The position numbers and the translations under genes were made by a program. Positions 8,208 through 22,857 of a stretch of DNA of 64,000 nt are shown here, piece after piece (position 1 is the first letter of the stretch; each line of letters starts with the position of its first letter). Under the pieces are notes generated by a model. The model searched no databases, was not told the origin of the DNA, and worked only from the letters and a program-made list of their open reading frames with translations. The stretch is from Parvularcula marina (lineage in GTDB: Bacteria > Pseudomonadota > Alphaproteobacteria > Caulobacterales > Parvularculaceae): NCBI RefSeq assembly GCF_003399445.1, contig NZ_QUQO01000001.1:372001-436000 (forward strand), in the 5' to 3' direction.

Positions 8208-9553
8208 AAGAACTCCTCTTCCTTGGGCACGCGAGAGAACGCGATCTTGGTCCCCAGATAGTCAAGGTCGATGGCCTGTTGATCCGCCAGCATTACATGG
8301 CGCGGCAGGGTCGAGCCCATCCGCCGCTTTGCGCCCTTGCCCGGCGGGGCCGCGAGCCGGGCAAGCCGCCCATCCGCATCGCGATTGAGCTGGTCGATCA
8401 CTTCCCAGAGCCGACCCTTTTCCGCTCGCTCCTCCGCCCGGCCGGCGCAGGCGAAAAGATCCCCCTGCACCGCACGCGGATCATCCGGCGCCATCAGGCC
8501 GTGGAGGAACACAGAGACATGAGAGAGCTCCATCCCCTGATTTTTTGCGTCCAGGCTCTCAGAGGCATGGCGCCATAATTCATTGAGGGCATCAAGAAAG
8601 CGGGTTGAATCCCGGCTCGCCTCAAAGCCGACCTCGACATCCGATACCCCGTCCGGCGCGCGCTTCATATTGAGGCTGAGCCGTGTTGCGAGCAGCCCTG
8701 CCATGCGCAGCCGCGCAGCGGCTTTCAAGAGCAGCGCCCGCGCCACTGCCCGCGCCTTGTCCGGTGATCTGTACCCGGAAGTCAGGACGCGAGAATGCCC
8801 GAACATCATCGTCTTGGTCGGAGGTTCTGCGACCTCATAGCCATGAAGCGCGTACCAGAAGCGCTCGCCCTGCACCGAATGCCAGATCGCCCGTGCATGT
8901 TTGGGTGCCAGATCCCACAGCCCCCGAAAGTCCGTAACACCATTCTGCGCCAACCGCTTTTCAATCCCGCCGCCGACACCCGGAATTTTCGAGAGCGGCA
9001 GGCCGAGGAGCTTGCCCGGCAGATCGGATGCCTCAAGCACGGTGAGCCCGTCCGGCTTGTTCATCCCGGCGGCCAGCTTGCCGAGCAGCCGCGTCTGCGC
9101 AAGCCCGATCGAGGACCGGAAAGCCGGCCCCACCCGTTTGGTGATGATCTCCTTGACCTCTTCGGCCACCGCGAGCGCCGCCTCCCGCTCCCGTTCGCGC
9201 CGCCCCAGCCGGAAGGCCGCCTCATCAATCGAATAGACCTTGTCGACCGGCAGGACAGTGCCGATCGCGCTCATCAATTGTTTGTGCAGCCCGACATAGC
9301 GGTCATGCCGCGCGGGCCGGACGACGAGATCGGGGCAGAGCTCCCGCGCCTCCCTGATCCGTGTCCCCCGCGTAATGCCGAAAGGCCGCGCCTCATAGCT
9401 CGCAGCGATCGCGCCCGAATATTCGGACTTATGCGGGGTGATCACCACCGGCCGCCCCATCAGGTCAGGCTCGTCATGCTGTGCGGCGGCGGCAAAAAAC
9501 GCATTGAAATCAATGAACAGATAGCGAAGGCCGCTGGCCGGAACGTAGTCCAT
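8201..9553 (-). CDS. Y-family (DinB-like) translesion DNA polymerase
   Basis: A 450-residue Y-family polymerase. Catalytic acids appear intact: D15 in FIDFNAFF and D110-E111 in YSIDEA, with F19/F20 at the steric-gate position. A helix-hairpin-helix LSKIPGVGGGIEKRL and a little-finger domain follow. It is therefore not a catalytically dead ImuB. The longer frame would start at 9577, but that ATG lies inside the LexA-type box, whereas ATG 9553 has GGGAG six bases upstream and is chosen. Expected role is replication past damaged bases during the SOS response. The DUF559 gene begins within its last codons. DinB versus another Y-family subgroup cannot be settled here. Confidence 0.88.
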   Translation of the reverse strand: MDYVPASGLRYLFIDFNAFFAAAAQHDEPDLMGRPVVITPHKSEYSGAIAASYEARPFGITRGTRIREARELCPDLVVRPARHDRYVGLHKQLMSAIGTVLPVDKVYSIDEAAFRLGRREREREAALAVAEEVKEIITKRVGPAFRSSIGLAQTRLLGKLAAGMNKPDGLTVLEASDLPGKLLGLPLSKIPGVGGGIEKRLAQNGVTDFRGLWDLAPKHARAIWHSVQGERFWYALHGYEVAEPPTKTMMFGHSRVLTSGYRSPDKARAVARALLLKAAARLRMAGLLATRLSLNMKRAPDGVSDVEVGFEASRDSTRFLDALNELWRHASESLDAKNQGMELSHVSVFLHGLMAPDDPRAVQGDLFACAGRAEERAEKGRLWEVIDQLNRDADGRLARLAAPPGKGAKRRMGSTLPRHVMLADQQAIDLDYLGTKIAFSRVPKEEEFLC

Positions 9554-20428: not shown

Positions 20429-21316
20429 TCAAGGCAGCGCCTTCAGCACTTCCAGCGCCCCCTCTTCGAGCGGTTTTGCCCAGTCATCCTCAACATTCGC
20501 GGCTGTCGCATAAAGCGCGAGCGCAAAGGCCTTGGTGTTGTGAAGGACCGCGAGGCCCTCTTCCGAGGTGAAGGCCTCGCCCCAATCCGCCATGGGGGAA
20601 GGATCGGCAAGGCTTTCCAGCCAGGGGGCCCAGCCGCCCGGCGGTTCGGCACCTCGGCGTGCCGCATAGACAACCGGCCGGACGAGGCGCGACGGCTCCC
20701 CATGAATATAGGAATGGCGCGACGGTGCGATCTGAGGCTTCAGCGAGGATAGCAGGAAGGAAACATTCTCATTACTGACATTATCATTGAGAATGAGCTG
20801 CAGCATCAGGTCCGCCGTATGGGCGACGAAATGGCGCCAGCCCTCCTCATCATCAAAGCCTCGGTAGTCGGTATTCGTCCGCATCTTGATGGACGCGAAA
20901 AAGACCAGATCCTTGCGCAGGCTGTCCGGCATCCACGGGTCGAGCCGGTCCGTCCGGACAAATTCGGAAATCACCAGAATGGCAAAGGGCTGGGCGACGC
21001 CTTCGGGGTCCGGGCCATTTGCAACATTCAGGGTCAGCTCCATGACTTCATCAAGAAGCTCCGGCCGCGCCTCTCCCCGCCGCAGCAATGCCGACATGCC
21101 GGTATAGCCGATGTGATCACGCAAATAGGGATCGGTTTCGTCAAGGCAGGGCACGAGACCGCGTAAGGCAATGTCATATTCTTCCCCGGTCGGAAAATCC
21201 CGCTCGGCCCAGGAGGAGAGCGCCTCCCCACTCAGGCCCAGCGGCGCACAGTCTCCCTGCTCTGGCGCCGCGCCAAGGCTTGCCAGTATCATCAGGGTAG
21301 AAATCAACATGTTCAT
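20429..21316 (-). CDS. DUF2785 protein with signal peptide
   Basis: A 295-residue protein matching DUF2785 by its DETDPYLRDHIGYTGMSALLRRG block, FAILVISEFVRTDRL and the EEGWRHFVAHTADLMLQL motif. These proteins look like helical repeats; no enzyme activity is known. An N-terminal hydrophobic stretch MNMLISTLMILASLGAAP looks like a signal peptide, so it is probably exported. It overlaps the upstream SRAP gene by 4 bases (ATGA), so the two are translationally coupled despite one being a DNA-associated family. Confidence 0.75.
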   Translation of the reverse strand: MNMLISTLMILASLGAAPEQGDCAPLGLSGEALSSWAERDFPTGEEYDIALRGLVPCLDETDPYLRDHIGYTGMSALLRRGEARPELLDEVMELTLNVANGPDPEGVAQPFAILVISEFVRTDRLDPWMPDSLRKDLVFFASIKMRTNTDYRGFDDEEGWRHFVAHTADLMLQLILNDNVSNENVSFLLSSLKPQIAPSRHSYIHGEPSRLVRPVVYAARRGAEPPGGWAPWLESLADPSPMADWGEAFTSEEGLAVLHNTKAFALALYATAANVEDDWAKPLEEGALEVLKALP

Positions 21317-22008
21317 AGCAGGCTGTCCTGTCTTAAATCCCGGCCCGGCTTGATGAGTTCCGCATCATCGGGCTTCCAACTATTGACGCGCCGGCTGACC
21401 GGCCAGAATTCAAAAGGCGGTGGCGGCAGGCCGATTATCGCCTCGGCGGGCGCCATCACCGTCTCATCGGGGTCGAGCCAGTCGGCATAGCGCTCAGGCG
21501 GCACATAGATCGGCATCCGGGAGTGAAGCTGCGTGATCGGATAAACCGACTCTCGCGTCAGGAATGCCGCTGTCTCCATCTCGCTGCCATTCTCCCCCAG
21601 CCAGTACTCCCACAATCCTGCGACACAGAAGAGCGGCATGTCCTCACCCATTGTGATCAGATAGGGCTGTTTCCCGTCCTTCTCCTGCACCCATTCGTAA
21701 AAGCCGTTCATCGGGAAAAGGCATCGCCTTCGCCGCCAGGCATTCCGGAAAGACGGCTTCTCCGGCGCGGATTCAGAGCGGATATTGACGACGGATTTCT
21801 TGAAGAACTCGCCCTTTTTGTCCCAACCGGGCACAAAGCCCCAGCGGACCAGCGCGAATTCGCGTCCGTCCTCTCGTGTCTCACGGATGATCGGCACGGG
21901 CTGGCTCGGCGCGATATTGTAGCGCGGCGGGAAATTCTCCGATACGTCGACGCCGAGCTGGACCCGAAGGTCGTAAGGGCCCGAGCTGAAGACATAACGG
22001 GTATTCAT
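21313..22008 (-). CDS. SRAP (YedK/HMCES) family protein lacking the catalytic Cys2
   Basis: A 231-residue SRAP-domain protein. Family members shield abasic sites in single-stranded DNA by a covalent link through Cys2. Here the start reads M1-N2-T3-R4-Y5 instead of MCGRY, so the crosslinking cysteine is absent. The other active-site residues remain: R4, N75 and R77 in VNIRSE, E105 in NGFYEW and H162 in LHSRMP. No in-frame upstream codons restore an MCGR start, and two codons differ, so a single sequencing error is unlikely. The ATG has no clear Shine-Dalgarno. It overlaps the DUF2785 gene by 4 bases and is divergent from the Nudix gene, with 19 bases between starts. Confidence 0.85.
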   Translation of the reverse strand: MNTRYVFSSGPYDLRVQLGVDVSENFPPRYNIAPSQPVPIIRETREDGREFALVRWGFVPGWDKKGEFFKKSVVNIRSESAPEKPSFRNAWRRRRCLFPMNGFYEWVQEKDGKQPYLITMGEDMPLFCVAGLWEYWLGENGSEMETAAFLTRESVYPITQLHSRMPIYVPPERYADWLDPDETVMAPAEAIIGLPPPPFEFWPVSRRVNSWKPDDAELIKPGRDLRQDSLL

Positions 22009-22027
22009 GACGCTAAAGGAGACCTCA

Positions 22028-22444
22028 TTGCCAGACGCGCAGACCGTAACACTCGCCACGGGGGCTGTCATATTCCGCGGCCGCGAAGTTCTCCTGATCC
22101 AGCGCGGGCGGGCGCCCTTTCTGGGCCATTGGAGCATTCCGGGCGGCAAGGTCGATTTCGGCGAGAAGATCACCGATGCCCTGCATCGCGAGATCCTTGA
22201 GGAAACGGGCATCCGCATGGAGATCCTCGGCCTGATCGACGCCTTCGAAGCGCTGCCGCAAAAGGACAGCGAAAAGCATTATGTCATGATCGACTATGCC
22301 TGCAGATATCTTTCGGGCGATGTCGTGGCCGGTGATGATGCGATGGATGCGGGGTTCTTCTCCATCCCCGAGGCCATGTCGCGGCTCGCCTGGGACAAGA
22401 CCCGGCTCGCCATCCAGCGCGCCCTGCCCTATGTGAAGGACTGA
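22028..22444 (+). CDS. Nudix hydrolase
   Basis: A 138-residue Nudix protein. The complete Nudix box is GGKVDFGEKITDALHREILE followed by ETGI, with all expected Glu residues. These enzymes hydrolyse nucleoside diphosphate derivatives; the substrate cannot be told. An ATG at 22007 is in frame but overlaps the divergent SRAP start; AAAGGAG at 22015-22021 with a TTG six bases later at 22028 is a better initiation site and is chosen. TIGR02301 follows 17 bases downstream, a pairing I have seen in other alphaproteobacteria. Confidence 0.85.
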   Translation: MPDAQTVTLATGAVIFRGREVLLIQRGRAPFLGHWSIPGGKVDFGEKITDALHREILEETGIRMEILGLIDAFEALPQKDSEKHYVMIDYACRYLSGDVVAGDDAMDAGFFSIPEAMSRLAWDKTRLAIQRALPYVKD

Positions 22445-22461: not shown

Positions 22462-22857
22462 ATGCGCCTGCTATCAGCCCTGATGTTCATGCTCGCTGGC
22501 TTTGCCGGGCTGGCCCATGCCGCGCCGCCCGGAACGGTCGAGGCGCAGGAAAGCTTTGAGTCTCGCCAGCGGGATCTTGTGGCGCTGGCCGGGCATCTGG
22601 GCAGGCTTCACCGCCTGCACCAGCTCTGCGGGGACGGCTACCGCGAAGGGCTCTATCGGGTCCGGATGCAGCAAATCGTGGAACTCGAAGTGCCGATGGG
22701 GTCGACCCGGCTCGACATGGTCGCGGCGTTCAACTCCGCCTATCGCGATGCCTCACGGGATTATCTCGCCTGCGGCGTCGATGCCCAGACACTATATGAG
22801 AGCGAAGCGAAGCAGGCCCTGCTCGTCGTTGAGCGGCTCTACGCGCCTTTCCGTTAA
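22462..22857 (+). CDS. TIGR02301-family exported protein
   Basis: A 131-residue protein with a cleavable signal peptide (MRLLSALMFMLAGFAGLAHA). The mature part has RQRDLVALAGHLGRLHRLHQLC and the two well-separated conserved cysteines, C56 and C104, expected to form a disulphide in the periplasm. It matches the alphaproteobacterial TIGR02301 family, whose function is unknown. It lies just after the Nudix gene and converges on dihydroorotase with a 4-base overlap of the coding ends. Confidence 0.82.
   Translation: MRLLSALMFMLAGFAGLAHAAPPGTVEAQESFESRQRDLVALAGHLGRLHRLHQLCGDGYREGLYRVRMQQIVELEVPMGSTRLDMVAAFNSAYRDASRDYLACGVDAQTLYESEAKQALLVVERLYAPFR

Follow-up and report, generated by a model that had tools for sequence, protein, structure and literature searches.

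What becomes of an SRAP protein that has lost the cysteine with which YedK and HMCES crosslink to abasic DNA? The question is raised by a single gene in the window, the 64,000-nucleotide stretch of Parvularcula marina DNA analysed here. In YedK, ring opening of the abasic sugar falls to Glu105 and His160, the α-amine of Cys2 forms a Schiff base and its thiol closes a thiazolidine (PMC9436759). Cys2 has been stated to be absolutely conserved or invariant across SRAP proteins (PMC3765255, PMC9436759), and no report of a natural lineage lacking it was found in the open-access literature.

An SRAP gene with asparagine at position 2

The gene lies on the minus strand (21313..22008) and is a clean ORF whose 231-aa product has the N-terminus MNTRYVFSSGPYDLR, with Asn (AAT, 22003..22005) as residue 2 of its MNTRY start in place of the Cys of canonical SRAPs. 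The product matched the Pfam SRAP profile (PF02586) over positions 1–213 of 214 (E 3.6e-57, 193.8 bits against a cut-off of 27.1), and YedK, HMCES and other SRAP structures were its sole phmmer matches in the PDB. An AlphaFold model built on 71 SRAP sequences had a mean pLDDT of 93.7; Foldseek searches with this model returned only SRAP structures at E ≤ 0.001, headed by YedK–abasic-DNA complexes including 8d2m, with TM values of 0.7–0.8 against YedK and HMCES structures. The full-length profile match and the fold place the protein in the SRAP superfamily, but outside the YedK subfamily PRK09951 of ncbifam, against which it scored 81.6 bits, far under the 349-bit cut-off.

The pocket is present, with codons all on the minus strand: R4 (21997..21999), invariant in the Asn2 proteins described below and in canonical SRAPs; N75 (21784..21786), R77 (21778..21780) and the general acid/base E105 (21694..21696), counterparts of the YedK residues of the same numbers; and H162 (21523..21525), counterpart of the ring-opening His160 of YedK. 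The Asn75/Glu105/His160 set (YedK numbering) that marks the SRAP pocket is thus complete, and translation and alignment bore out the initial annotation as to the MNTRY start and all five of these residues. The protein shares its fold, its full-length SRAP profile and R4, N75, R77, E105 and the His with E. coli YedK and the SRAP domain of human HMCES, and differs from them in having Asn2 for Cys, Thr3 for Gly, Ile76 for Ala and a Met1 that is expected to be retained. It is an SRAP by fold and profile, but lacks the Cys2 that defines the crosslinking YedK/HMCES type.

The genus was sampled with 10 Parvularcula genomes, including P. maris (G004) and P. oceani (G006), and Asn2 was found in eight of them, the window's included, with one SRAP apiece. 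These proteins start with MNTRY (window), MNARY or MNARF (six others) or LNARY with a TTG start codon (P. maris), and their Asn2 codon is AAC in six cases and AAT in two. In five members (L002, L003, L004, L006 and L008) no in-frame ATG, GTG or TTG was found upstream of the MNAR start, as far as the nearest stop or the limit of the 60-base region examined. As seven other genomes carry Asn2, that of the window is not an assembly error, and virtually no credence is given to a sequencing or annotation error hiding a real MCGR start, a case raised in the initial annotation for which nothing was found in favour, and against which stand eight independent assemblies (some single-contig), the synonymous AAC/AAT variation and the lack of an upstream start.

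Of the other two genomes, G009 encodes a Thr2 protein (M-T-A-R-Y) from a GTG start, whilst in G001 the gene is gone from an otherwise conserved M23-pyrC-DUF2385-NUDIX-patatin-SDR block. The G001 deletion is clean, NUDIX adjoining patatin and their tblastn matches lying about 140 bases apart (L280, about 8466–8604), which means that the SRAP gene is dispensable; the only SRAP-like match in this genome is a remnant at another site, broken by a TAG stop. In the gene-order tree of the neighbours G001 grouped with G000/G008 at a weak support of 31–39 %, and its deletion can be dated only loosely. The window gene is the sole SRAP of its genome, which is 99.5 % complete: the canonical second copy that might have accompanied it was found neither there nor in the other Asn2 genomes.

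Residue 2 is otherwise rarely anything but Cys, which was present in 128 of the 140 cellular SRAPs whose N-terminus could be read and in 78 of 80 viral loci (the remaining two being unreadable there), in a sample skewed to relatives of the window, so that these counts are not global rates. The 12 exceptions, all cellular, comprise the eight Asn2 proteins, the Thr2 protein of G009 and single Phe2 (L045), Val2 (L101) and Ser2 (L193) proteins. A search of 289 genomes of the class with the DNA pattern M-N-[TASG]-R-[FY]...[R][FY]N, which requires an ATG start and fixed spacing and misses some members, matched the window alone, the Cys2 version of the pattern matching 64. L193 (G177) starts with MSGRF, has Lys for N75 and Thr for the His, and comes from a genome with several SRAP matches; L045, from a Bacteroidetes MAG, is strongly diverged, with an MFSRY start, Ser for N75 and Thr for the His; L101 (G049 C108; MVQRY) is a frameshift-split copy, a decaying paralogue. 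The Parvularcula Asn2 proteins are unlike all three in mostly retaining the pocket. The reverse change was seen in L095 (G017) and L090 (G054), which keep Cys2 but have E105 replaced by Asp or Val and the His by Phe or Asp, both genomes holding a second SRAP; L182 (G253) is a Cys2 protein with Arg at the N75 position and is otherwise canonical.

Neighbourhood and origin of the Asn2 proteins

Across the genus the gene order is M23-pyrC-DUF2385-NUDIX-SRAP-patatin-SDR, and the Asn2 SRAPs all lie at this one locus. The divergently oriented NUDIX hydrolase gene (22007..22444, plus strand) served as an orthology marker, since it adjoins SRAP in nine of the 10 genus genomes, in G026 and in Marinicaulis; beyond it lies the gene for a DUF2385/TIGR02301 protein (22462..22857, plus strand), a conserved member of the neighbourhood. 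The ATG codons of the SRAP and NUDIX genes overlap as CATG (22006–22009); the presence of AAAGGAG and then, about 20 bases on, of a TTG suggests that NUDIX may truly start at this TTG. Marinicaulis has the same DUF2385-NUDIX-SRAP order with a Cys2 SRAP, and NUDIX also adjoins a Cys2 SRAP in G026, of the family Parvularculaceae. These two orthologues share 41–52 % identity across the clade as well as the NUDIX neighbour, but start with the canonical MCGR[FY], unlike the Asn2 proteins.

A tree of 116 SRAPs grouped the eight Asn2 proteins in one clade (support 100/91) nested inside Cys2 proteins, with the Thr2 protein of G009 as sister (100/99) and the Cys2 protein of G026 as the next sister (100/96). 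The initial annotation had envisaged that homologues without Cys at residue 2 might make up a conserved clade, and such a clade was found, monophyletic and spread over eight genomes of one genus. From this tree order and the shared synteny, a single orthologous gene is judged to have gone from Cys2 to non-Cys in place, once, with neither transfer nor a duplicate. Horizontal acquisition was ruled out by the synteny and the tree, and a phage origin was rejected in view of the Cys2 of viral SRAPs (78 of 80 loci) and of phage and plasmid matches below 50 % identity. A direct change from Cys to Asn takes two base changes, so that it probably passed through an intermediate such as Ser or Tyr.

The 200 bases preceding the gene contained no LexA box (GTTC-N7-GTTC) in any Asn2 member and no DNA-repair genes lie beside it, its neighbours being NUDIX, DUF2385, pyrC, M23 and patatin; an SOS/LexA-regulated SRAP operon was therefore discarded.

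Consequences of Asn2 for abasic-site chemistry

With no Cys2 thiol a thiazolidine cannot form, and by established chemistry the canonical crosslink is impossible for the window protein and its seven Asn2 relatives. The fate of Met1 also bears on the reaction. Methionine aminopeptidase takes off Met only before small P1' residues, a set which, as observed in Salmonella, does not include Asn (PMC3174948); since Met1 is also lost from YedK proteins mutated in the active site, the bacterial SRAP site plays no part in its removal (PMC9436759). Met1 should accordingly stay on in front of Asn2, and both observations are consistent with the view of the initial annotation that Asn2 would block Met removal.

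Two forms of YedK offer a comparison. The C2A mutant makes no stable crosslink, its Schiff base leading instead to strand cleavage of AP-DNA, whilst wild-type YedK with a blocked N-terminus still cleaves AP-DNA in a manner dependent on Glu105 and His160 (PMC9436759). The C2A mutant (8d2m, a Schiff-base complex; PMC9436759) resembles the window protein in having an SRAP pocket without a thiol, and is among its best structural matches. However, this artificial protein loses Met1 and forms the Schiff base, and acts as a lyase, through a free Ala amine, whereas in the natural MNTRY protein Met1 should stay and displace the amine; an AP-lyase-like SRAP of the C2A type has a free N-terminal amine in its pocket, and the aminopeptidase rules predict that the window protein would keep Met1 (PMC3174948). 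As Met1 is expected to be retained and the SRAP site does not remove it, the protein is better likened to an N-terminally blocked SRAP, and by that analogy should bind, perhaps open the abasic sugar, and form no thiazolidine.

On balance we favour, with a little more confidence than doubt, the reading that a single-copy, vertically inherited SRAP lost its crosslinking Cys once, before the sampled Parvularcula radiation, and was kept as a non-crosslinking SRAP. The Asn2 protein would bind abasic-site ssDNA in the usual SRAP channel, and Glu105 and His162 would probably still convert the abasic sugar to its ring-opened aldehyde form. The outcome would be at most a transient Schiff base with β-elimination, as in an AP lyase, or a reversible shielding of the site, rather than a stable DNA–protein crosslink. 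The retention of R4, N75, R77, E105 and R164 and of the fold, the single locus and the lack of any other intact SRAP in the Asn2 genomes argue for this reading; counting against it, a retained Met1 shifts the α-amine by one residue, so that the Schiff base may fail to form altogether, and the pocket residues lost in G008 and G009, the clean deletion in G001 and the want of any clear preference for pocket over core weigh in the same direction.

Maintenance, erosion and other readings

Pairwise dN/dS among the Asn2 SRAPs was 0.11–0.53 where dS could be estimated, the larger dS values being near saturation; the closest pairs gave 0.27 (L002/L003) and 0.14 (L004/L006). N75, R77, E105, W106, R164, P34, W62 and T151 are invariant or nearly so in the eight Asn2 proteins and their 40 closest Cys2 relatives. 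The clade keeps the majority of the near-invariant SRAP columns, so that the pocket is not clearly favoured over the conserved core. Residue 2 is itself retained, since its codon drifts between AAT and AAC whilst Asn stays constant. Judged from these substitution patterns, the gene is under purifying selection.

A live rival, possible although on the unlikely side, is that of slow erosion, in which the loss of Cys2 ended the AP-site chemistry, leaving a residual or structural role (e.g. weak ssDNA binding) for a gene on its way out. It is kept alive by the Asn2 member in G008 (L008), in which H162 is replaced by Val, by the broken pocket of the Thr2 sister in G009 (N75R, E105V and H162V) and by the clean deletion in G001, and it accords with the damage seen in the isolated non-Cys2 proteins L193, L045 and L101. 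Against it stand eight full-length copies which, at identities down to 51 %, mostly show dN/dS values of 0.1–0.5 and which all keep N75, R77, E105 and Asn2 itself, with His162 in seven. The proposal of the initial annotation that this was not a decayed gene thus holds for most members, and its claim that the rest of the pocket is conserved holds for N75, R77 and E105 throughout, but neither extends to the His of G008 or the sister in G009, and the loss in G001 weighs against the former; the lone decaying copy that it had set out as the contrary case is not what was found, Asn2 occurring in eight of 10 congeneric genomes.

It is distinctly improbable that the suicidal Cys crosslinking has given way to a multi-turnover or reversible N-terminal chemistry, whether a Schiff-base AP lyase acting through the amine of Met1 or Asn2 or, if some unusual route were to take off Met1, a six-membered cyclic aminal, instead of the thiazolidine, in which the amine and the side-chain amide of Asn2 capture the abasic aldehyde. 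Asparagine is known to give six-membered cyclic aminals with aldehydes in small-molecule chemistry. Nth is encoded in all 62 genomes of the family, so that there is no obvious call for a further AP lyase, a point that weighs against the favoured reading, and the loss of Nth was ruled out as a motive for such a lyase.

Equally doubtful is a switch to some other substrate or partner, with no link to abasic DNA, for which the Glu/His/Asn pocket would be used and Met1–Asn2 would form part of a new pocket. Several changes accompany that of Cys2 to Asn and are specific to the clade: Gly3 is replaced by Ala in seven of the eight proteins (by Thr in the window protein), and Ala76, which lies between N75 and R77 and is Ala in 40/40 close Cys2 relatives, by Ile (as in the window protein) or Val in all eight, to which are added the fixed changes R95 to His, A100 to Met or Leu, and Trp and Lys at 211/212. 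R4, R77, R164, W62 and other near-invariant positions of the SRAP channel are unchanged, however, no new domain is present, and NUDIX, DUF2385, pyrC and patatin give no hint of a pathway.

A peptidase-like SRAP is hardly credible, the points in its favour being the family name and the Cys-Glu-His thiol autopeptidase predicted in 2013, with Cys2 as nucleophile (PMC3765255): that triad is broken here by the absence of Cys2, which argues as strongly against a peptidase as against crosslinking, and Met1 removal from YedK active-site mutants speaks against such an activity in bacteria (PMC9436759). Of the two roles put forward in the initial annotation, a non-covalent abasic-site SRAP and a peptidase-like one, the former is thus retained as a plausible inference and the latter abandoned.

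The best reading of the Asn2 lineage is an in-place conversion, across the sampled Asn2 members of the genus, to a non-crosslinking SRAP and not to a peptidase. The accepted HMCES/YedK mechanism rests on Cys2, a residue described as absolutely conserved from bacteria to humans, and the Parvularcula clade departs from this pattern. That Cys2 was exchanged for Asn whilst the remainder of the protein was maintained suggests that this SRAP has a use that needs no crosslink. As the only SRAP gene of its genomes, without Cys2 and yet with a pocket apparently under purifying selection, it represents a natural separation-of-function case, for which the syntenic Cys2 orthologues of Marinicaulis and G026 provide a clean comparison pair. 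The clade can show whether SRAPs have a crosslink-independent job in abasic-site recognition, ring opening or the shielding of ssDNA.
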